Shown in pieces: positions 15,379 through 55,100 of a stretch of 64,000 nt of DNA. Within the stretch, counting starts at the first letter, position 1; every line of letters begins with the position of its first letter. The position numbers and the translations under genes are program-made. The stretch is taken from contig JAOIVW010000002.1 of assembly GCA_028224375.1 (NCBI GenBank), positions 124,001-188,000 on the forward strand, written 5' to 3'. The notes beneath the pieces are model-generated. The model saw only the letters and a list, made by a program, of their open reading frames with translations, was not told the origin of the DNA and searched no databases. Origin of the DNA: Hellea sp. Lineage in GTDB: Bacteria; Pseudomonadota; Alphaproteobacteria; Caulobacterales; Maricaulaceae.

Positions 15379-15473
15379 ATTTTTAAAGCCGTAAACTTAG
15401 AACCTAGTTGCATTTTAAACTTGAAGTAAATTCTTTGATATGGTTACTCTTATTAACAAATTGGAGGAATGCT

Positions 15474-16943
15474 GTGGAGCTGCGAAAGAAACGATTTTAC
15501 GCATTTCTTTTACTGGGGTTTCTTGGTTCTTCAAATATAGCATATTCTCAAACTACTGGTTTTATTCCACCAACTCCAGATGAGTTTAATAGCTTTGCTC
15601 TTACTAATACACATTTTGGCAAGATTAATGGGCCTCCTCCGAAGCAAGATAGCATAGCGCAGTTTTTTCCAAATCCTGGAGAACAAGGGACACAATATTC
15701 TTGTATGGGCTTCGCATTCGCTCATGCAATGATAACTTCACTAGAAGCCCAGAAAACTCGACGGTTGCCTGAACCTTACAGCGCGGCATATCTTTATAAC
15801 TCGACAAAAGAGGAAGAGCCTCAGGGACAATGTAATTATGGTGTAAAGCCTTCCGTAATTATTAATATGTTAACTTCCTATGGCGTGCCACGAGCTAGCG
15901 CATTCCCATTTGATCCCAAGCGATGTGATAAAATCAATATAAGTAATATTATTCAAACATTTCCGAGAAGAAAGCTCAAAGATGTTGAACGCATAAACGG
16001 TCCGGGCTCAGGCAAAGACATAGTTACTAGAGTTAGAGATGCTATTGCCTCGTCAAAGCAGCCAGTGGTAATTGGTATGCCCACAGGGCCGAATTTTGCA
16101 AATTACCGTTCTGGAATTTATCCATCAAACTTCCAAACTAAAGATTTAAAACAGATTTTGAATGAAGTAATTCCTAACGATGCGTTCCACTCCATGGTTA
16201 TTATTGGGTATGACGACACTCGCGGTTTTAAAGTTATAAATTCGCATGGATTAGATTGGGGAGATTTGGGCTTTGGGTGGATAGATGATGAAGTTGTAGA
16301 GCGTAAAAATGTCTGGCTTTGGACCGCGAAACTTGGAGATTTAGTAGAGTCTACTGGTGTAACACCAAGCGTTTCAGTGGCGACGTCGCCTGAGGAAAAA
16401 GAATATGGGGCCGCAGCAGAATCTACTGACGACCCTGAATCCGTTTTTGGCGCTCCCGCCATTTCATATCCAGCCGCGGGTTATGGTGAAAAATACGCGT
16501 TCGGAGAAAAATTAGCTAGCTCTTTAAGGGGTACAGTTGGTCATAATGCAGCTGGTCAGACGCCCAAAGGAATAGATTATTATCCAGTCTCTTTATGGCT
16601 TCAGTTGGCGGAAAAAGATATGAAAAAACTAAAAAGAGTGGAGTACCATTGGAATGCTCCCAGTTACAAAAGCCCTAAAGTACCTAAAGGAAAATCTGAA
16701 ACCTCCTACTTAATTGAATACTTTGGTTATGGGGCAGTAAGCCAGGCAAGCATACGAGTTTGGTTGGTAGATGGAACTGAATATGAAATATTCTACCCAT
16801 TTCGGAGTATCTGGAATTATGGCTCATTAAATTATAATGATCTGAAACCCAACTCGACAATCATAAAAGTTGACCCCAAAGCATTATCGCCTTGTTCAGT
16901 AGGATCAAGTCGGGTCGGCAGAGGGCCATGTATTGCTCAGTAA
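15474..16943 (+). CDS. Secreted papain-like (C1A) cysteine protease
   Basis: 489 residues from GTG 15474, which has GGAGG six bases upstream and directly precedes a signal peptide (RKKRFYAFLLLGFLGSSNIAYS). The catalytic set is visible in papain order: Gln71 and Cys77 in EQGTQYSCMGFAFAHA, His239 in NDAFHSMVIIGYDD, and Asn256 in KVINSHG. A long C-terminal region (~290-489) is not recognised; it includes the acidic motif DDPESVFGAP (~319-328), echoed in the next gene. Codon use is much more AT-rich than in nrdA, which suggests acquisition. Only 30 bases separate it from the M6-type protease gene. Substrate unknown. Confidence 0.8.
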   Translation: MELRKKRFYAFLLLGFLGSSNIAYSQTTGFIPPTPDEFNSFALTNTHFGKINGPPPKQDSIAQFFPNPGEQGTQYSCMGFAFAHAMITSLEAQKTRRLPEPYSAAYLYNSTKEEEPQGQCNYGVKPSVIINMLTSYGVPRASAFPFDPKRCDKINISNIIQTFPRRKLKDVERINGPGSGKDIVTRVRDAIASSKQPVVIGMPTGPNFANYRSGIYPSNFQTKDLKQILNEVIPNDAFHSMVIIGYDDTRGFKVINSHGLDWGDLGFGWIDDEVVERKNVWLWTAKLGDLVESTGVTPSVSVATSPEEKEYGAAAESTDDPESVFGAPAISYPAAGYGEKYAFGEKLASSLRGTVGHNAAGQTPKGIDYYPVSLWLQLAEKDMKKLKRVEYHWNAPSYKSPKVPKGKSETSYLIEYFGYGAVSQASIRVWLVDGTEYEIFYPFRSIWNYGSLNYNDLKPNSTIIKVDPKALSPCSVGSSRVGRGPCIAQ

Positions 16944-16973
16944 AAGTAAATTATCTAGAAAGGACCACAAATC

Positions 16974-18557
16974 ATGAAAAAACAAATTATGGCTTTAATG
17001 TCAGGAGTAGTTATTTCATTAGGTTTTTCGCCCGCAATCGCTTCTCCTCCCCCCTCACTGGACCCCGATAGCCAAGGAGCTGAATATGAAATTTCAGAAG
17101 AGATATCTAACTATGTCATTCGAAATGGTTTCAGAACACGTGTTGCTACAAAAAAATTAATCAGAGATCACTTACGTCGGACAAAAGAAGATGATGAGCC
17201 AACATTCGGCGCACCTCCTATCAAAAGGGCAACAGCAGTTAATGGAACTGTAGAAATTCCTGTCTTGCCCTTTCTATTTTCAGATAGCGCCAAGGCTCCT
17301 TTCTCCAGTTCGGTATTAGAAACACATTTATATGGAAATGCGCCGGGCGACAGATCCATTACCACTCATTACAATGATATGTCTCGTGGATTACTAAATT
17401 TGACTGGTGAAGTGCGACCATGGGTGCGCTCCAAATATAATCGTAAAGAAACTAACTCAGATTTGGGTCAAACTTTGACTGAAATTTTGACCGAAAACGA
17501 TAAAAAGGTCAATTTTGCACAATTCGACAATGATGGGCCAGACGGTAAACCCAATTCAGGGGATGATGATGGGATTGTTGACTTTATTGCTTTTGTTCAG
17601 CCAAATATAGGAAATGAATGCGGCAAAAGTTCAGGTGATATTCACTCGCATAAGTATAATCTCAAATATTACAAAGAGGGTGTTTTTGAGACTAATGATA
17701 AGAGCAAACTGAAGGACAGTGATGGTATCCATAGAAATATACGCATTGCAGAATATTTAATCAATCCAGCCCTTAGTTGTGATAAAAAAAGCATTATCGA
17801 AATCGGAGTATTTACCCACGAATATGGGCATGCCTTCGCTTTACCGGACTTGTATAATACAAATAACCCTCGGGTTTCTTCTGGTATATCAAATTGGGGA
17901 TTGATGGGGGCTGGAAGTTGGGGCGGGGATTACGTCTCTCCAGATAGACCAACTCATATGCTAGCTTGGTCAAAAGAATACCTTGGGTGGGTTCAACCTT
18001 TAGAGATTTCCAATGATGTATCAAATGTAAAATTAAGGCCCGTTACAACCGGTGATGTAATAAGAATTAATTATTCAGATGTTCATGATCCGGGAGATCA
18101 GAAGTACCTTCTTTTAACATACAGGACAAAAGATGGTTTCGATGACAGTCTGCCAGCCTCAGGCTTACTGATGACAGAAATTCATGATGTAGTAATTGCA
18201 GCTGGTATGATGACAAATCAAGTAAACTCTATTGCAAACCTTCACGGCATAAATGTTATACCCGCAAATGGAGTGCTTGATTTACATAGACCTTCAACTG
18301 TTGCGCACCGAGATCACCTATTCACGCCTTCAGTTCATGGAAATGAGTTGCCTGAATCAGCTGCTCAAAGGCTTGGCGTAGTACTTTGTAATATACGCGA
18401 AGAAGATAGCGCTCTGCTACTAGACATCTTTTTTGATGAGACTAGCTGCCCTTCTACTGATGGAGAGCCAATATTTGGGAGTCCGGGTGCAAGTGAAACA
18501 ACATCAGATACTTTCAGCACGATAATTTCATCTTTGCTAAAGGAGGCTTCAGAATAA
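16974..18557 (+). CDS. Secreted M6-like zinc metalloprotease
   Basis: 527 residues with a signal peptide ending near AIASPPP. The zinc motif HEYGHAFALPDLYN gives His282, Glu283, His286 and Asp292, and is followed by SNWGLMGAGSWGGD, the arrangement of M6 (immune-inhibitor-A-like) peptidases; FDNDGPDG..DDDGIVDFIAF is the family's calcium-type segment before it. Residues ~25-85 look like a pro-region ending near KEDDEPTFGAPP. A second copy, DGEPIFGSPGA, lies at ~498-505, and a related motif is in the upstream cysteine protease. The ribosome site AAAGGACC precedes the ATG. AT-rich codon use matches the upstream gene, so both probably arrived together. Confidence 0.82.
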   Translation: MKKQIMALMSGVVISLGFSPAIASPPPSLDPDSQGAEYEISEEISNYVIRNGFRTRVATKKLIRDHLRRTKEDDEPTFGAPPIKRATAVNGTVEIPVLPFLFSDSAKAPFSSSVLETHLYGNAPGDRSITTHYNDMSRGLLNLTGEVRPWVRSKYNRKETNSDLGQTLTEILTENDKKVNFAQFDNDGPDGKPNSGDDDGIVDFIAFVQPNIGNECGKSSGDIHSHKYNLKYYKEGVFETNDKSKLKDSDGIHRNIRIAEYLINPALSCDKKSIIEIGVFTHEYGHAFALPDLYNTNNPRVSSGISNWGLMGAGSWGGDYVSPDRPTHMLAWSKEYLGWVQPLEISNDVSNVKLRPVTTGDVIRINYSDVHDPGDQKYLLLTYRTKDGFDDSLPASGLLMTEIHDVVIAAGMMTNQVNSIANLHGINVIPANGVLDLHRPSTVAHRDHLFTPSVHGNELPESAAQRLGVVLCNIREEDSALLLDIFFDETSCPSTDGEPIFGSPGASETTSDTFSTIISSLLKEASE

Positions 18558-34673: not shown

Positions 34674-35436
34674 TGGCTAACTAGGAACAACCGCAGCAGG
34701 TGATAATCGCCAAGTGAGCGCTAGTCGCTCCCCCCTCCGACCCGCATGCGCGGCCCACCTCCCCCGTGAACAGGGGAGGAGAAGGGTGCTAAACTGTAAA
34801 TGAAGAGAGCCCTCTTCCCCCGCATGCGGGGGAAGTACCGCGAAGCGGGGATGGGGGGAGCGTAACCCGCCATGCTTTGCGAGGAAAAACCCAACGGATT
34901 AACTACCTCATCTCACGCAAATCATCGCCGCGTTCTCTTCTTTCAGCTATCATTCCCGCGCTTTATCCAGAACATCTCCGCCAGCGTTTTGAAAAAACAC
35001 AGGAGCGGTGACTCGTAAGCCTCCGACTCATCATTCCCGTAATCTCCCCACATCATTCCCACACTCTCCCCACATCATTCCCGCGAAGGCGGGAACCCAG
35101 CAGCGGACCACCCCATCAAGAGAGAACCTATAAGAGCCCCTCCCAATGACCATTAGCCATTAAAGGCCAGACGCCGAAAGACTGGGTCCTCCACTGGGTC
35201 CCCGCCTACGCGGGGATGATGGGGGAGGGGGTGGGGTTTTTATTTTATCAGTAATGGTGGAGTTTTTTTGGGTAATTGTGAGGAGTAAGGATCTTCGAGA
35301 TCTTAAAACAGCCATTACTTTTGATTCTTGCTGAATATTAAATAATCAATCATTAACCTTAGGTGATCTGTGGTAAACAACTTTAAGTGATGATAGAAAT
35401 ACAATTAGTACGATAAGAATCGAAAGAGCGATTGAA
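34674..35436. repeat. Intergenic region packed with GC-rich palindromic repeats
   Basis: No gene was found in 760 bases. Palindromes seen include the 22-base perfect one at 34814-34835 (CTTCCCCCGC / GCGGGGGAAG), TTCCCGC-GAAG-GCGGGAA at 35078-35095, and CCCCGC-CTAC-GCGGGG at 35200-35215. ACATCATTCCC is repeated in tandem at about 35050-35080. These resemble the dispersed extragenic palindromes of Alphaproteobacteria. Past 35240 the DNA becomes AT-rich and holds the probable promoter of the nuclease-STAND gene. Confidence 0.7.
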
Positions 35437-37731
35437 ATGTATGATTTTTCCAACTTATCTCCGCTAGACTTTGAACATTTGATTGCGGACTTGATGAGCG
35501 CAGAAATGAGTTTGCGTTTTAAGTATTATAAGGCTGGCGCCGATGGAGGGATAGACACTCAAGCTTTCGATGGTTCCAGACGTATTGTTCTGCAAGCTAA
35601 GAGATATATTGAAAGTAATTTTACAAAACTAAAGAGTAAGTGCAAGATTGAGGCGGCTCTGTGGGAAAAACGCTCATCAGTACCAGATGAATTCTGGCTT
35701 GCGACGACAGTACCGCTTCTGCCTTCGCAGGCTGAGGAACTTGCTGAACTCTTTCCTCTTATGCCAATTGATTCATCGCGAGTGCTTGGATTGGGTGATA
35801 TAGAAGGTCTTTTGCGCTCCCACCCCGAAGTGGGCAGAGGTCACGTAAAGCTTTGGCTTGGAAACACAGGGACACTTGAGAGAATTATCCATTCTGGAGT
35901 CATGGAGAACTCTGATTTTGAACGAAAAGAGATTGAAGATACTGCCAAAACTTATGTCAGCCATAAAGGCTTCGATATCGGGCTTAAAACATTAATAGAC
36001 CATGGTAGTCTAGTTATATCCGGACCGCCTGGCATTGGCAAAACGACGATGGCTCACATGCTAGCTCTGGATCACATGCGAGGTGGTTGGGAAGTGGTTT
36101 TCGTTCACGAAGATTTCGAAGCTGGAGATGCTGTGAAAGCAGGTGCAAAACGGCTCATTTTCTTCGACGATTTTCTAGGTCAAATTACACTTACGCCAGA
36201 TAGTATACGACATTCGGACCATCGTATTAACTCTTTAATCAGACGTGCCGCTAAGGACCCGGACCTCAGGTTTATGATGACATCGCGGGACTATATTTTA
36301 GAAGATGCACACCATCAGAGTGAACGGCTCAGCGAAGATATATTTGTGGGCCGCAAATATGTATTGCGTTTAAATGCGTACTCTAAGCTACAAAAAGCTC
36401 ACATTTTGTATAATCACTTATATGCTTCTGGATTACCACAGCCCATACTTGAGAGGGTCGTTTCGACAGGAGTTTATAAACAAGTTGTGGACCATCCAAA
36501 TTTTACGCCACGCCTAATAGAGACTATGACCACGCGATATAAATCGCAGCCTGGTCCAGAAATTTACATTGCCGAATTTCTTGACTTACTAGACAATCCA
36601 GAACGGCAATGGTCAATACCTTATGATGAACACTTTAAACCTTCGGACCAACTATTATTAATATCGTATAGTTTATACATGAGTCAGCGTAGAAGTTTTC
36701 CGACGAGAGAACTTTTGTTAGAAAACTTTCTTGACCTACGCAATCGCCTCGGTTTTGCAATAGCACTGCCTGAGGCGAGAAAAGAATTTCGAAAAGCGTT
36801 ACGTCGAATGGATGGTGGTTTGATTCAAATTTCTGACGGGAGAATACGGTCAACTAATCCTGGAGCAACAGAGTTCCTTCAAGGGCGTCTTGAAACAGAT
36901 GGCCATTTAATCGTATATTTGGCGGATACCAATACGGAAAGAGAGATTGAGGCAGCGATGTGGTCACTTCAATCACGAAAGAGAACGTCACCAGAGAAAG
37001 AAACCTTAAACGCAATCCTTAAGGCAATAGAGCGTGTTTCGCAAAACGCCTTATCGCCAGATTTGGCAGTAGTTGTCGCTTGGGTAGACCGTCTATTGGC
37101 TGACGATAGCATATCACAACATCGGTCAATGCCACTGATACGTCGACTTACTAATGCAACAGATGATGATTGGCCAATGGAGCCAATGGAGACTTTATTG
37201 AAGTGGCTTACAGATTACAAAAAAAAGTTTTCTTTGCCAGTCGGTTTCAGAGCCCAATTTGTATCTTGGCTAGAAGTGGAAGCATTAAGAATAGAGCCTT
37301 ATATTAAAGAGGGTGAAATTGAACTGGATGAGGCTGAAGCATTCTTGAATAATGTGGTTTGCAGTGAATTTTCTTCGCCCAGTCTTTTCAAACTTGGAGC
37401 GGGACTTACAGAAAGCGCCATCGACAAAGCTACTTCAAATTACACTATAGAATCCGACGAAGATGCAAGTGTGATTATTCAGACAATCACTGATTTAGGT
37501 GCAGAATACGACCTAGATGTATACTCGGCTATTCGAGATATAGAGGACACAGCTAACCAAAAGTGGGCTCGTGATGATTGGTGGGAGCAACGTGCCATGG
37601 AAGAGCGCCGTGAAGAAAAATTTTTGGGTTCAGGGGGTATCAAGACTATGGTTGGGGAAAGCTCAGTTGAAGCAAGTGAAGAACAAATTATCGACGATAT
37701 GTTCGGGAGCCTAAACGGTAGTGCGTCCTAA
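35437..37731 (+). CDS. Mrr-type nuclease fused to an nSTAND3-like NTPase (candidate antiphage protein)
   Basis: 764 residues in three parts. Residues ~1-130 resemble an Mrr_cat restriction-endonuclease fold: Glu14 (DFEHLIADLM), Asp40 (GADGGIDTQAF), and Gln53/Lys55 (VLQAKRY), the PD-(D/E)xK-type active site. Residues ~165-400 are a P-loop NTPase with Walker A GPPGIGKTT (196-204), Walker B RLIFFDDFLGQ (239-249) and MMTSRDYI (280-287), strongly like nSTAND3. Residues ~400-764 are helical and probably the sensor arm. STAND proteins with nuclease effectors are known antiphage sensors; this role is inferred. The gene is AT-rich, alone, and lies in repeat-rich DNA between DUF1223 and lysS, which suggests horizontal gain. 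Confidence 0.75.
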   Translation: MYDFSNLSPLDFEHLIADLMSAEMSLRFKYYKAGADGGIDTQAFDGSRRIVLQAKRYIESNFTKLKSKCKIEAALWEKRSSVPDEFWLATTVPLLPSQAEELAELFPLMPIDSSRVLGLGDIEGLLRSHPEVGRGHVKLWLGNTGTLERIIHSGVMENSDFERKEIEDTAKTYVSHKGFDIGLKTLIDHGSLVISGPPGIGKTTMAHMLALDHMRGGWEVVFVHEDFEAGDAVKAGAKRLIFFDDFLGQITLTPDSIRHSDHRINSLIRRAAKDPDLRFMMTSRDYILEDAHHQSERLSEDIFVGRKYVLRLNAYSKLQKAHILYNHLYASGLPQPILERVVSTGVYKQVVDHPNFTPRLIETMTTRYKSQPGPEIYIAEFLDLLDNPERQWSIPYDEHFKPSDQLLLISYSLYMSQRRSFPTRELLLENFLDLRNRLGFAIALPEARKEFRKALRRMDGGLIQISDGRIRSTNPGATEFLQGRLETDGHLIVYLADTNTEREIEAAMWSLQSRKRTSPEKETLNAILKAIERVSQNALSPDLAVVVAWVDRLLADDSISQHRSMPLIRRLTNATDDDWPMEPMETLLKWLTDYKKKFSLPVGFRAQFVSWLEVEALRIEPYIKEGEIELDEAEAFLNNVVCSEFSSPSLFKLGAGLTESAIDKATSNYTIESDEDASVIIQTITDLGAEYDLDVYSAIRDIEDTANQKWARDDWWEQRAMEERREEKFLGSGGIKTMVGESSVEASEEQIIDDMFGSLNGSAS

Positions 37732-37867
37732 TTTACATTTTATGCTTACTGCTTAGGCATGGATAGTTGAATAATCTATGGCTTGCTAAGGGCATATTAT
37801 CTACAGCCATTGACCCCACCCCGCCAACAGCCTAAATCCCGCGCTTAACCTCACTACGGACACTCCC

Positions 37868-39466
37868 ATGCCTAATGACCTTTATATGAGCGCGAAAGCT
37901 TGGCCTTTTGAACAGGCGCGGCAGATTTTGAAACGGCTTGATATTGAGAAAAAGCGCGGCATTGAGCGCGGTGAGGCTCCTGTTGTGTTTGAGACGGGGT
38001 ATGGCCCGTCGGGCTTGCCGCATATTGGTACCTTTGGTGAGGTGGTGCGCACGACTATGGTGCGCAATGCTTTTATCGCGCTGACCGAAGGGAAAGTCCC
38101 GACCAAGCTGATTTGTGTCTCGGATGATATGGACGGGATGCGCAAAGTGCCGCCGACTGTGCCTAATCCTGAAAGCCTTGAGGAATATCTGCAAAAGCCG
38201 CTCACCGATGTGCCTGATCCCTTTGGCACGCACGCAAGTTACGGCGCGCATATGAATGCAAGGCTGCGGGCCTTTTTGGATGGGTTTGGGTTTGAGTATG
38301 AGTTCCTCTCCGCCACCGAGCTTTACCGCACGGGCCGCTATGATAAATTCTTGCTGAAGGCGCTGGAAAAATTTGATGATATTATGGCCGTGATGCTCCC
38401 CACATTGGGTGAGGAACGCCGCGCGACCTATTCGCCCTTTTTGCCAATCTCGCCTTCATCAGGCCGCGTGCTTTATGTGCCGATGACATCCGTCGACGCC
38501 GAGGCCGGGACGATTACATTTGATGATGAAGACGGCTCCGAGGTCACACTGCCTGTCACGGGCGGTCATGTGAAGCTGCAATGGAAGCCGGACTTTGGCA
38601 TGCGCTGGGCGGCGCTGGGTGTGGACTTTGAAATGTTCGGTAAAGACCATCAGGATAATGCGCCGATTTATTCGCGCATTTGTAAGATTTTGGGCGGGCA
38701 ACAGCCTGTGCAATATGTCTATGAATTATTTCTCGACGAAAAAGGCGAGAAGATTTCCAAGTCTAAAGGCAATGGCATCTCGGTTGAGGATTGGCTGAAA
38801 TATGCGCCTGCCGAAAGTCTCTCGCTTTATAATTTCGCCAAGCCCCGCGCGGCGAAGAAATTATATTTCGATGTCATCCCGAAAAATGTCGATGAGTATT
38901 TTCAGCATCTGGACGGGTGGAAACGTCAGGACGAAAAGGCGCGGCTGTCTAACCCCGTTTGGCATATTCATAATGGCAATCCGCCGAGCTTTGTTCCGCC
39001 TGTCTCTTTCGCGCTTTTGCTCAATCTGGTGAGCGCGGCAAATGCGTCGGATAAAGATATTCTCTGGGGCTTTATTCAGCGCTATGCGCCTGACGCCAAC
39101 CCGAGCGATAATCCTGCGCTGGATGATTTGGCCAGCTATGCCGTGCGTTATTATCAGGACTTCGTAAAACCTAATAAAGATTACCGCGCCCCGACGGATC
39201 AGGAACGCGCAGCGCTGGAGGATTTAACGGCGCGTTTAAGGGCTGTACCAGAGGCAGAAAAAGCTGACGGCGAAGCGTTGCAAACGCTGATTTTCTCAGT
39301 CGGGAAAGACCATGAATTTGAGAACCTGCGCAATTGGTTCAAAGCGATTTACGAAGTCTGCCTGGGCCAAAGCCAAGGTCCGCGCTTCGGGTCTTTTGTG
39401 GCCATTTACGGCCCCGATGAAACCGCGCAATTAATTGAAGATGCGCTGGCTGGGAAGATGGGTTAG
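37868..39466 (+). CDS. lysS: Lysyl-tRNA synthetase, class I
   Basis: 532 residues. The class I signatures are present: HIGH-type PHIGTFGEV in [11 protein letters not shown] (~residue 50), and KMSKS-type [11 protein letters not shown] (~residue 295). The enzyme charges tRNA-Lys. Most bacteria use class II LysRS; archaeal-type class I is standard in many Alphaproteobacteria. The ATG at 37868 starts [18 protein letters not shown]. It is monocistronic, with palindromic repeats downstream. Confidence 0.94.
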
Positions 39467-45709: not shown

Positions 45710-46174
45710 GTGGAAGAAGTGTTTTTTGAAATAAGTGAAACAAAAACTCTATTAAAATCTCTACTTCCCATGGGTAATGACGAGTATCGTTTTTTGTCTG
45801 ACAGAGAAGACAATAGTGCTACCATTTCTATATTTAGGTTTGGAGAGTTTAAGAAAAAAACGCTTAAAATTACTCTTTTCCGCGCTACTAATGTCGATCA
45901 AATTTTTAACGCATGGACAATTTTTGTTAAGAAAATTGATAAAAAAAAGCAATTTGAGTCTATTGAAAAGACGGAAACAACACTTTGGTTTTACGTGAAC
46001 GATTACAACGGAGAACGACTACCATTCTCCGAAATCGAAGAGTTTTTAGAAGCAGGTAATTTTAACAAAATTGACTATAGCAAAGCAAGACTTGCATATA
46101 GGATTGCGACTCTGCGTTATCAGATGGGCCTACGAGTGGCTGAAAGCCTAAATCTCTTTCGTCATAAAGACTGA
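45710..46174 (+). CDS. AT-rich protein of unknown function
   Basis: 154 residues, start GTG 45710 with GAAGGA just upstream (a second GTG lies nine bases on). The protein is rich in Lys, Phe and Glu; it shows no signal peptide, membrane helix or family motif that I recognise. Base composition is clearly lower in GC than in pyrD and the following genes, which suggests recent gain. Its stop overlaps the convergent GNAT gene by 27 bases. It begins ten bases after pyrD and may be read through from it. Confidence 0.55.
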   Translation: MEEVFFEISETKTLLKSLLPMGNDEYRFLSDREDNSATISIFRFGEFKKKTLKITLFRATNVDQIFNAWTIFVKKIDKKKQFESIEKTETTLWFYVNDYNGERLPFSEIEEFLEAGNFNKIDYSKARLAYRIATLRYQMGLRVAESLNLFRHKD

Positions 46175-51276: not shown

Positions 51277-52620
51277 ATGCGCTTAGCTGTGTGCACTTTA
51301 TCGGCGGTTTTACTATCGGGCTGTTCTTGGCTTGGCGGTGCTGGCAATGTCTTTAATGGCGGTGGTCAAGGCCACAATGCCAACTCGTCTCAATATCAAT
51401 ATGGCGCTGGTCAAGCTGCACGTGGTCAACATCAATATCGGGCGCAGGGTAATCCGTGTCAGGTTTATTCGCCGCAAGCCCCTATTCCGCAAGGCTGTCA
51501 TCCGTCTCAAGTCACGCTCGGCACAGCCGGCGGCTTCCCGCAGCAGCCTAATTTTGGCGGTGGTCAATATACTAGCCAAGGATATGGGTCTCATGCAGGC
51601 GTTGCCCATCAGCAAGCCGCGAGTTATAATCCGCGTAAGAATAAGCTGCGTAAGCCACGTTTCCGCGGATCTTTATCTTTAGGCGTTGAAAAAAGCGTTT
51701 CAGGGAGCCTTTTAAGCTTCAGTGACGTGGGAGATTTAGATCCTGCAGCCGGTTATAATCCTCAGAATTTTAATCAGGTTTTTGTCAATGGCACGCCTGC
51801 AGACGGACAAGTCACAACAACGACTTACACGGCAAACAGCCAGACGCGCGATGAATTTGGCGCTCCAGCTGGTGCGACGCAAGCAGATATCTTTGCGCCC
51901 AATAGTTTTGATGCCTTAAACGCACCGGACATTTCTTTTGACGATGTTTATTCAACGCCCGCGAGAATTGCTGGCGGTGCCGAATATATATTGTCGCCAA
52001 AAACAACTTTATTCGCAAATGCGGGCTACTCTTATGCAGAAGGTAAGAGCACATCGACTGCAGCCTCAATCATTGCAACGCCTTATGAATTTACGTCCGT
52101 TCAAAATTTTGATGCGGCCGGCGTGGCAGACGGTGCCCCTATTGAGACAATTGTAGCTGGCAATAGCACACAAATTGCGAATTTTGGCTATGATTTTACG
52201 GATATGAAGCGCATTGATCTCGAAGCTGGGGCAAGACGTTATTTTGATCCGATTGTGAAGTCACAAGGCTATAAAACACTTACACCATTTGTCGGAGCTT
52301 CAGTCGGAGCCTCACGTTATAACTCAGTGTCGTATGACGTTGTTCAAACACAATCAGCCTATATTGATTCATTTCCAGCGTCGACAGGCGACGGGACCTT
52401 TGAAATTTCAGGTCCCGCCACACGCGTTGATCTTTATGACAGTCAATGGGTTGCCTCAGGTCAGCTAAATGCTGGCATGGAGTGGCAAGTTACACCTAAA
52501 ACAGCTTTTGCATTTGAAACAGGCGTCCGTATCGAAGGCGCTCGCGATTATAGCAACGGTGTAAAGGGTGACACGAATGTAGCAATTCCCGTTACAATAA
52601 GAGGAAGTTACAATTTTTAG
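51277..52620 (+). CDS. Lipoprotein with outer-membrane barrel-like domain, copy 1
   Basis: 447 residues. Lipobox VLLSGC (Cys16) then SWLGG. A Gly/Gln/Asn/His-rich segment (~20-125) is followed by a basic stretch (RKNKLRKPRF) and a domain with alternating beta-strand residues (~130-447) ending in Phe (TIRGSYNF), typical of OmpA/OmpW-like barrels. The start and signal peptide match the next two genes, so it is a paralogue family. Lipidation plus a barrel is unusual. GGAGGAACGAG precedes the ATG. Function unknown. Confidence 0.7.
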   Translation: MRLAVCTLSAVLLSGCSWLGGAGNVFNGGGQGHNANSSQYQYGAGQAARGQHQYRAQGNPCQVYSPQAPIPQGCHPSQVTLGTAGGFPQQPNFGGGQYTSQGYGSHAGVAHQQAASYNPRKNKLRKPRFRGSLSLGVEKSVSGSLLSFSDVGDLDPAAGYNPQNFNQVFVNGTPADGQVTTTTYTANSQTRDEFGAPAGATQADIFAPNSFDALNAPDISFDDVYSTPARIAGGAEYILSPKTTLFANAGYSYAEGKSTSTAASIIATPYEFTSVQNFDAAGVADGAPIETIVAGNSTQIANFGYDFTDMKRIDLEAGARRYFDPIVKSQGYKTLTPFVGASVGASRYNSVSYDVVQTQSAYIDSFPASTGDGTFEISGPATRVDLYDSQWVASGQLNAGMEWQVTPKTAFAFETGVRIEGARDYSNGVKGDTNVAIPVTIRGSYNF

Positions 52621-52731
52621 CTAAATAACTGGAAAACTTAAGGTTTTGTTTCCGATTTAGAAACTAAATTTTAAACATACAGTGTTTTAAACAAAGACAG
52701 TTAGTCTTTAACGAAGAAAAGGGAGGCCGAT

Positions 52732-54060
52732 ATGCGGCTCGCAGTTTGCGCTTTATCAGCGGTTTTATTGTCAGGATGTTCTTGGCTCGGTGGGGGCGGT
52801 CACGGCTCTTCAAGTGGTGCGTATGGAGTAAATTGTGCTCCAACGGGAACAGGTTATTACGGCGGCGGTCAATCCGGCGCATGTGGCCCAGCAGGTGGAT
52901 ATGGCGTAGCCAATGGTTACGGCGCAGGCGCAGGATACGGCCAAGCAGGTTTCGGCCAAGGTGCTGGATACGGTGCTGGGGCTGGTTACGGCCAAGGTGC
53001 TGGATATGGTGCAGGTGCTGGTTACGGCGCTCAAGGCTATGGCGGACAAGGTTTTGGAGCTCAGGGCTTTGGCGGACAAGGTTTCGGCGGACAAGCTGTA
53101 GGCGCAGGTCTTGCGGCTAATGGTGTCGGCGCAAATGGCTACACATTACAAGGTTATCAGGGTGCATATGGCGCGAACCCTGCGGTAACAACACTCGGCG
53201 CAGGTGCAGGATACGGCTCAGCTGTATACGGACAAAATGTTGTCGGAACACAATATAATAACGGACAATATGTTCAAGGCGCTGGTGTTCAAACAGTTCA
53301 AGGCGCTCCTTATTATGTGCCGCAGCCTTACCCGGCTTATTACGGCGTTCCGCAACTTCGCGGCGTAGGCGCAGCTCTACCTTTCGGTTTTGAGGCCGTC
53401 GGCGGAACAGAATTTGATATTGGCGGAGATATCTTTGACGGTAAAAAAGGCGGCCCAAGTGTAGGCGGCGGCGGCAGAGCCGGTGACATTGACAACATCA
53501 GCTATGATGATGCTTTTGGTACGACCTATTCAATCGGCGGACTCTTCTCATATGATGTTGGTCCCAATACAACCGTATTAGGCGGCGGTAATTATGCGAC
53601 TGCTGACGGCAACCGCGTCAGCACAGGCAGCTTTGAATCCGGTAGTTTTGATCCTACCACGGGAGATTTCACGTCAACCGGGCCTGAGCGTACGCTCACA
53701 GGAGAGTTCGACGACTTGAATACTTACACGATTGAAGGTGGCGTCCGTCAATATGTCGGCGGCAATCAAGTCGTACGTCCTTATGTCACTGGATTAGGCG
53801 GATTTACTTACAATGAAAGCGTTGATTTGACTCAAACACATGATGATGATGGCACTCTCTTTAATGAGCAAGAGTTTATCCAATCAGGGTGGCGTCCAAC
53901 AGCTGCAGGTCTTGTCGGCGCAGAAGTCGCTGTCGGGAACAGAGCCGCAATTGGTATCGAGTCCGGCATTCGCTGGCGCGATAACCTGAAAACAAACGCA
54001 GGCGGTGCAGATGATCGCTGGACAATTCCTGTTAATCTTCGCGGCCGGATTGCTTTCTAA
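52732..54060 (+). CDS. Lipoprotein with Gly/Tyr-rich repeats and barrel-like domain, copy 2
   Basis: 442 residues. The signal sequence is almost identical to that of copy 1, with lipobox VLLSGC at Cys16. Residues ~60-125 are repeats built on GYGAGAG(Y/F)GQ and QGFGG, and a looser Gly/Tyr/Gln region continues to ~200. A beta-rich domain follows (~220-442) ending in RGRIAF. The Gly/Tyr repeats resemble adhesive or amyloid-prone sequences and would lie on the cell surface if the lipid anchor faces outward. Two Cys at ~35 and 51 (NCAPTG, ACGPAG) add interest. GGAGGCCGAT precedes the ATG. A terminator follows. Confidence 0.72.
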   Translation: MRLAVCALSAVLLSGCSWLGGGGHGSSSGAYGVNCAPTGTGYYGGGQSGACGPAGGYGVANGYGAGAGYGQAGFGQGAGYGAGAGYGQGAGYGAGAGYGAQGYGGQGFGAQGFGGQGFGGQAVGAGLAANGVGANGYTLQGYQGAYGANPAVTTLGAGAGYGSAVYGQNVVGTQYNNGQYVQGAGVQTVQGAPYYVPQPYPAYYGVPQLRGVGAALPFGFEAVGGTEFDIGGDIFDGKKGGPSVGGGGRAGDIDNISYDDAFGTTYSIGGLFSYDVGPNTTVLGGGNYATADGNRVSTGSFESGSFDPTTGDFTSTGPERTLTGEFDDLNTYTIEGGVRQYVGGNQVVRPYVTGLGGFTYNESVDLTQTHDDDGTLFNEQEFIQSGWRPTAAGLVGAEVAVGNRAAIGIESGIRWRDNLKTNAGGADDRWTIPVNLRGRIAF

Positions 54061-54076
54061 TTAAGCCGAAATTAAC
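54061..54076 (+). promoter_or_regulatory. CtrA-like sequence after copy 2
   Basis: TTAA-N7-TTAAC with full consensus directly follows the stop codon at 54060 and precedes the terminator. It is 170 bases from the next gene and might be accidental. Listed because the motif is complete. Confidence 0.2.
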
Positions 54077-54088
54077 CAAGAATACAAA

Positions 54089-54115
54089 AGCCCGGGTCAT
54101 TGGCCCGGGCTTTTT
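54089..54115 (+). terminator. Terminator after lipoprotein copy 2
   Basis: AGCCCGGG and CCCGGGCT form a perfect stem with loop TCATTGG, followed by TTTT. Confidence 0.9.
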
Positions 54116-54245
54116 GCTATTTCTTTAAGACTTTCCCTTAAAGGCCTATTTAACAAAATCGAGTTGGCCTTGTCTTTGCAACGTAGTGTTTCAAATCTGA
54201 AGTTCGCGGCAATTGTGCCAATTCGAAACAACAGGGAATGGAACT

Positions 54246-55100
54246 ATGCGTATTTTATTAGCTGGTGCAGCAGCAATTGCACTTTCAGGATGTTCTTGGT
54301 TAGGTCTGGGCGGCAACCACGATTACAAAAATTATGGCTATAATGGCCAAACAGGCAATTACGGCTATCAAGCTGACAGAGTCGCGCCAAAGGCGTGTCA
54401 TAGCGGTCAGTGTTTAAGCCGTTGGAACCTTGAAGGCGCTATCGGACCGTCATTCGCAGTCGGCGGCACAGCCATAAGCGGCGAACAAATCAACGCTTCA
54501 CAAGGTACAGCTATTCGCAATATCGATAGTGATGATGTTTTCGATACAGGATGGCGCGGTGAGTTGGGCGGCTCTTATGCGCTAAGCCCGAACCGTAAAA
54601 TCACGGCAAACGGTTTTTATGAGCACGCCAATGGCGGAGATGTTGTAGATTGGGGCACACTAAACGGTGCCTCTCTTCAGGGCGGCTTGTCAGATTATGA
54701 TGCATATGGTGCTGAAGTTGGCCTTCGTCAATATTTCGCTCCGCGCCGTGCTCCGCTTGTGAAATCAATTCGTCCGTATATCGAAGGTAAACTCGGCGCA
54801 GCCTATCTTGAGGACATTAATTTAAATAATGTCACAACAACGGCTGGCGGCGTGGTAACGAATGTTCCTGATCTACCATTTTATGAAAGTGGTTGGGTTC
54901 CAACAGCTGCAGGTATGATTGGTATTGAAACACCTATCGCTAGATATACAACAATCGGTCTTGAGACAGGTCTGCGTTATACGGGCACGCCTAAAACCGA
55001 CACATCTGCTCTTAGTCCGGGCACGCCATTAGCGGGCACGAATAATGGCGGCGCACGTTATTCTATTCCGGTTATGCTGCGCGGTCGTTATCGCTTCTAA
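54246..55100 (+). CDS. Lipoprotein with outer-membrane barrel-like domain, copy 3
   Basis: 284 residues from ATG 54246. Lipobox IALSGC (Cys16) and SWLGLGG match the other copies; the low-complexity part is short (YNGQTGNYGYQ). The barrel-like domain has RWNLEGAIGPSFAVGG at its start, SGWVPTAAGMIGIETPIARYTTIGLETGLRY, closely matching SGWRPTAAGLVGAEVAVGNRAAIGIESGIRW in copy 2, and ends RGRYRF. This confirms the paralogy. A leftover frame upstream to 54213 has no lipobox-consistent start. Function unknown. Confidence 0.72.
   Translation: MRILLAGAAAIALSGCSWLGLGGNHDYKNYGYNGQTGNYGYQADRVAPKACHSGQCLSRWNLEGAIGPSFAVGGTAISGEQINASQGTAIRNIDSDDVFDTGWRGELGGSYALSPNRKITANGFYEHANGGDVVDWGTLNGASLQGGLSDYDAYGAEVGLRQYFAPRRAPLVKSIRPYIEGKLGAAYLEDINLNNVTTTAGGVVTNVPDLPFYESGWVPTAAGMIGIETPIARYTTIGLETGLRYTGTPKTDTSALSPGTPLAGTNNGGARYSIPVMLRGRYRF

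Follow-up and report, generated by a model that had tools for sequence, protein, structure and literature searches.

Proteins that combine a nuclease with a STAND-type NTPase, such as AVAST and its relatives, are well-established phage sensors. The locus described here, situated in a window of 64,000 nucleotides from a Hellea sp. contig (JAOIVW010000002.1, positions 124,001 to 188,000), raises the question whether its single AT-rich gene among housekeeping genes encodes such a sensor, whether this domain arrangement is new, and by which mode of action the protein would operate.

Domain architecture and active-site residues

The open reading frame is intact (764 codons, ATG start, zero internal stops) and occupies exactly the coordinates given in the initial annotation (see Table 1). 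Both domains claimed there, an Mrr-like nuclease and an nSTAND3 P-loop NTPase, exceeded the curated Pfam cut-offs, with 26.4 bits versus 21 for Mrr_cat (residues 5-59) and 137.6 bits versus 27.2 for nSTAND3. The active sites of Mrr-type PD-(D/E)xK nucleases are characterized by the pattern E...GxDxGxD...QxK, which is present with E13, D36, D40, Q53 and K55. Among the catalytic residues named initially, Asp40 and Gln53/Lys55 are correct, each being identical in 102/102 aligned sequences, and D36 and E72 are equally invariant; in contrast, the proposed Glu14 has to be replaced by E13 (conserved in 99/102), as residue 14 is a histidine at a variable position. The Walker B motif was confirmed as read. 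The segment at residues ~400-476 is predicted to be winged-helix-like, a name that was derived from the order of three helices and a beta hairpin in the model and not from a fold match. Relative to the window, the description as AT-rich holds (GC 0.43, GC3 0.37), the GC3 value being the fourth lowest among the 49 window ORFs of at least 150 amino acids.

Table 1. Coordinates of the PDC-S73-type gene, its domains and motifs, and the adjoining features (window positions).
Feature	Position	Strand	Basis
PDC-S73-type gene, Mrr nuclease - nSTAND3 NTPase - helical C-terminus, 764 aa	35437..37731	+	ORF; PADLOC PDC-S73
Mrr-type PD-(D/E)xK nuclease domain, residues 1-135	35437..35841	+	Pfam Mrr_cat 5-59; residue conservation
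nSTAND3 NTPase domain, residues 173-329	35953..36423	+	Pfam nSTAND3, E 3.6e-40
Walker A GPPGIGKT, residues 196-203	36022..36045	+	sequence; G196, G199, G201, K202 identical in 102/102
Walker B IFFDDFLG, residues 241-248	36157..36180	+	sequence; D244, D245, F246, G248 identical in 102/102
Predicted winged-helix-like segment, residues ~400-476	36634..36864	+	AlphaFold2 secondary structure
Variable all-helical C-terminal region, residues 477-740, putative sensor	36865..37656	+	AlphaFold2 helices; pairwise identity
Short C-terminal tail, F756 conserved (99/102)	37657..37728	+	alignment
Repeat/palindrome block upstream, outside the gene	34800..35234	.	35074-35234 shares 72% identity with the repeat block next to the alternative cargo gene in G006
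Right edge, DNA homology to G006 resumes, 61 bp upstream of the lysyl-tRNA synthetase start codon	37807..37867	+	blastn 37807-39466, 85.5%

Assignment to the PDC-S73 family

According to the profile searches, the gene is, by its sequence, a divergent member of the catalogued candidate phage-defence family PDC-S73: the corresponding profile of PADLOC-DB 2.0.0 (2023; PDLC05079) was matched by residues 2-756 at positions 4-749 of 752 (E 2.7e-103). No feature separating the protein from PDC-S73 was found; its score is considerably lower than that of the G121 relative (345 versus 806 bits). A pseudogene or fragment is rejected by the full-length match and the absence of internal stops. In consequence, the suggestion that this exact arrangement may be undescribed does not stand, because it had already been modeled end to end as PDC-S73. 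What holds of the initial interpretation is an accessory gene for a nuclease, an nSTAND3 domain and a C-terminal helical region, as indicated by Pfam, the predicted fold, residue conservation and a patchy distribution. In the literature searched, neither PDC-S73 by name nor a published antiphage activity test for any of its members was found; the term nSTAND3 appeared in two papers, one of which deals with Avs5. PMC12988326 traces the PDC genes to a guilt-by-embedding approach, citing Payne et al. 2024, and describes validation as pending for the majority of the PDCs in the core defensome.

In a large protein set, of which the 7999 best candidates were scored, 110 proteins including that of the window matched at the threshold of E <= 1e-3; this number places the reading frame far above chance, and a chance ORF is rejected by its 109 other matches. 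Among the matches listed, the three closest others aligned over 99% of the length at identities of 76, 64 and 37%, the remaining ones over at most 77% at no more than 36%. Within the 41 family sequences that were scanned (of the 110, the window's own included), PDC-S73 and nSTAND3 were detected in all 41 and Mrr_cat in 38.

The family alignment comprised 102 of the 110 sequences including the window's own (P0040, P0047, P0051, P0063, P0095, P0104, P0109 and P0110 were excluded as shorter, fragmentary or long). Besides the nuclease residues mentioned above, K138 is identical in every row, as are the Walker residues listed in Table 1, R284, and H353, P358, R359, P388 and W392. This invariance of nuclease and NTPase residues argues, at the sequence level, that both enzymes have probably been kept active. 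The mean pairwise identity (5151 pairs) amounts to 0.41 for residues 1-135, 0.35 for 136-172, 0.40 for 173-330, 0.33 for 331-399 and 0.27 for 400-476; it falls to 0.16 (0.164) for 477-740 and is 0.25 for 741-764. The region 477-740 is thus the most variable one, with zero columns in which a single residue accounts for 90% or more. Compared with the two closest homologues, it is 0.66 and 0.50 identical, the nuclease 0.84 and 0.73, and the 24-residue tail even less (0.60 and 0.45). A conserved front followed by a variable 477-740 region would be expected if effector and switch were fixed and the sensor diversified; weak constraint on this region would fit as well.

Distribution among relatives

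A core gene, the alternative that the initial annotation itself had raised, is rejected: in translated searches of draft genomes, several of which are incomplete (completeness 76 to 100 within the genus), matches were obtained in 2/137 family genomes (the own genome and G121, at 30%) and in 0/9 genomes of the same genus. In a sample of 385 genomes of the class, 11 matched at E <= 0.001; most of the nuclease and NTPase was covered only in the own genome and in G313 (29%, residues 2-500), the other nine matches being weaker and partial. For comparison, lysyl-tRNA synthetase was found in 58/61 genomes searched, the own genome included.

The own genome contained four nSTAND3 matches, of which the one over the cut-off is the PDC-S73-type gene. 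Since nSTAND3 also exceeded its cut-off in 7/14 control genomes, this domain alone is no marker of defence, a result that would be compatible with a cellular ATPase-nuclease of DNA repair or stress response devoid of any defence role, as would the modeled AAA+ core, which resembles many housekeeping ATPases. Such a cellular function is nevertheless highly improbable in view of the absence of matches from 9/9 same-genus and 135/137 family genomes, the atypical composition of the gene and its full-length match to a defence-candidate model.

Variable site upstream of lysyl-tRNA synthetase

The gene ends 136 bp before the ATG of the lysyl-tRNA synthetase gene downstream. Its flanks had been described as repeat-rich DNA and housekeeping genes; the latter was confirmed, the former applies to the upstream side only (about 34800-35234) and not to the downstream side. 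The names DnaN, RecF, pst and lysyl-tRNA synthetase were read from the translations and not from family scans.

In the closest relative, G006, whose synthetase is 93% identical, the same site (L037 5293-6774) is occupied by a gene on the opposite strand that encodes a 493-residue HATPase_c_3 protein; residues 15-296 of the latter match PADLOC MzaB (E 6.4e-26). Judged from the sequences of this one relative, the two sister genomes carry different defence-like genes at the position upstream of the synthetase, and the MzaB-like cargo of G006 is suggestive of a small hotspot for defence-like genes. The upstream repeat block possibly represents the left edge of the variable site; this left junction is tentative, because only repeat DNA aligns there. 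As pstC, pstA, pstB and the upstream DUF1223 gene had no match in the G006 stretch, the variable stretch may extend beyond the PDC-S73-type gene. Another gene order upstream of the synthetase was present in G007, G009, G010 and G017; the contig of G004 stops 980 bp upstream of the synthetase, and the remaining synthetase loci carry at most 1.5 kb of flank.

None of the nine window ORFs scanned with the PADLOC models at 1e-5 gave a match, which places the window copy outside any recognizable defence island. The scan for promoters and terminators returned fewer sites than its shuffles, and neither an Rfam match at gathering score nor a tRNA was detected in the window. Elsewhere in the window, three further stretches were recorded: an adjoining AT-rich gene pair with Peptidase_C1 and Peptidase_M6 domains beside the ribonucleotide reductase gene (15408-18557; GC3 0.32 and 0.31, ranking second and third from the bottom among the 49 ORFs; no PADLOC match), a 154-aa ORF directly 3' of the dihydroorotate dehydrogenase gene (45710-46174; GC 0.35; no Pfam or PADLOC match), and three successive forward-strand ORFs of 447, 442 and 295 aa (51277-55100; GC3 0.38-0.39; no Pfam match at 0.001).

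Genomic context of the homologues

Homologues were present in 37 plasmid records, 28 of which were typed as conjugative (MOB-suite), in at least five species genomes, in two phage records and in at least two IMG/VR contigs; with relatives in so few viral records, a phage gene is rejected. The neighbors vary over eight annotated plasmid loci and the window, as judged by eye, so that the gene appears as a single one without conserved partner; a multi-gene operon is rejected, since a partner common to the eight plasmid loci is absent.

Eighty-eight neighboring ORFs selected from 15 loci were scanned as a pool, and 20 of them, picked by eye from 12 loci, were scanned singly. Ten of these 20 matched PADLOC models at E <= 1e-20, in 7/12 loci: AriA and mad6 (L050), the methyltransferase and restriction subunits of Type I systems (L051), Type I restriction as a partial match (L052), PDC-S58 (L057), PDC-S06 and AbiEii (L059), GajA (L061) and PDC-S06 (L064). 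No PADLOC match was obtained for the other ten, including all those tried from L053, L054, L055, L056 and L058. Owing to the biased choice and the lack of a control set, this count is to be read as support and not as proof. On a Prosthecochloris plasmid (L060, 6553-12304), the PDC-S73 homologue is located near a diversity-generating retroelement comprising avd, a reverse transcriptase and formylglycine-generating-enzyme family proteins.

The frequent occurrence on plasmids, together with the addiction-type neighbors HipA, Fic and AbiEii on some of them, could also point to a conflict gene of plasmids or mobile elements that protects its replicon from competitor plasmids or conjugative elements instead of from phages. 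We regard this function as quite unlikely: the window copy is situated between housekeeping genes of chromosomal type, and several homologues lie near genes matching antiphage models.

Predicted fold and comparison with known STAND systems

Based on the AlphaFold2 model (pLDDT 85.7, pTM 0.66), an Avs-like fold is tentatively predicted for the window protein. In the Foldseek comparison with the PDB, Avs4 bound to the phage portal (8dgf) ranked first (E 3.1e-9, 790 alignment columns); EfAvs5 came next (E 3.2e-7), and SAMD9, NOD2, RPP1 and CED-4 were among the lower-ranked matches. The TM-scores by query length are low (0.38 at 12% identity for Avs4, 0.33 at 10% identity for Avs5). The VIA-align comparison concerned mostly the AAA+ core (residues ~147-458) and placed housekeeping AAA+ chains on top; its best 50 matches listed were AAA+ chains of the proteasome, Clp and DnaA types, and the absence of Avs from these excludes nothing. 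The family profile matched mostly P-loop ATPases over short stretches among the PDB sequences (best 60 of 207), and the viral fold library returned weak matches, the top one being a phage protein labeled NLR family. Folded alone (8 sequences), the C-terminal region reached a pLDDT of 57.8; with this low confidence, no ligand class is suggested by the model.

The protein has the AVAST-type layout, i.e. an N-terminal effector, a STAND NTPase and a variable helical C-terminal region. Eight PADLOC families matched at E <= 1, none of them AVAST-named, in a library that presumably includes AVAST models. Two of the matches were confined to the N-terminus: residues 2-159 matched positions 3-158 of 639 of Aga_TIR-PNTD1-PNTD2 (E 2.5e-34), and residues 2-147 matched positions 3-138 of 572 of Aga_REase-TIR-PNTD1-PNTD2 (E 2.9e-22); we take "Aga" in these names to mean Argonaute-associated. 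Both models were also matched by 41/41 family sequences scanned. The effector cassette is thus common to the Aga proteins and the PDC-S73 family, the match stopping before the NTPase, and these N-terminal 159 residues appear to be a nuclease cassette that is re-used elsewhere.

Avs4 possesses a STAND NTPase and a C-terminal helical sensor, as the window protein appears to; its chain (8dgf), however, comprises 1534 residues, compared with which the 764 residues found here are about half the length. According to PMC12931631, Avs1-Avs4 recognize terminase, portal or another phage protein and then cut the genomes of both phage and host with their nuclease effectors, which kills the cell. With Avs5 (PDB 9jap, 9nc9; chains of 764-833 residues) the window protein shares a similar chain length and the nSTAND3 class of NTPase, but the effectors differ: a Sir2 NADase is combined with nSTAND3 in Avs5, according to PMC12931631, and an Mrr nuclease is present in the window protein.

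Proposed mode of action

The gene is a well-supported nuclease-STAND antiphage candidate. Antiphage function, a phage molecule as trigger, oligomerization, a DNA target and cell death are steps that we infer beyond the identification of the domains. With a probability of roughly two in three, we consider the gene product to be an NLR-like candidate immune receptor that consists of one protein, belongs to the PDC-S73 group and is triggered by phage, whose nuclease cuts DNA and by which the infected cell is stopped. A phage molecule would bind to the variable C-terminal helices (residues ~477-740); binding would lead to nucleotide exchange and to assembly of the nSTAND3 NTPase into an oligomer; the oligomer would switch on the N-terminal Mrr-type nuclease, and the active nuclease would cleave DNA, with abortive infection as the outcome.

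Mrr-type nuclease domains also occur in type IV enzymes. An unlikely reading, if the least unlikely of the alternatives considered, is therefore a type IV-like, modification-dependent restriction enzyme that would recognize modified foreign DNA directly and cut only this DNA without death of the cell, the NTPase acting as motor or regulator. Several homologues are indeed annotated as "restriction endonuclease" by their sources, and the homologue P0004 weakly matches the mREase_IV profile (E 0.0078). In contrast, we take the nSTAND3 NTPase of this protein to differ from the McrB-type GTPase, and the helical C-terminal region, being without a conserved column, is not suggestive of one conserved DNA-reading surface. 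Moreover, nSTAND3 is the NTPase class found in Avs5 (PMC12931631). A compact Avs-like receptor that causes DNA cleavage and abortive infection thus remains the most likely action of the protein.

More speculatively, PDC-S73 might represent a hybrid branch of the bacterial NLRs, in which an Avs5-type nSTAND3 switch drives an Mrr nuclease in a chain of half the Avs4 size, a rapidly diversifying helical sensor reads a ligand unused by known Avs proteins, and such genes replace one another as cargo at the site upstream of the synthetase; this extended proposal is tentative, and we would rather doubt than assume it as a whole.

The PDC-S73 relatives are single, compact nuclease-STAND genes scattered over alphaproteobacteria, gammaproteobacteria, actinomycetes, Chlorobiota, Bacteroidales and one methanogen, and a single-gene receptor of 764 residues is simple to express and to assay. 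Should these proteins prove active, nSTAND3 would be seen to serve as a switch for NAD depletion in some receptors and for DNA cleavage in others.
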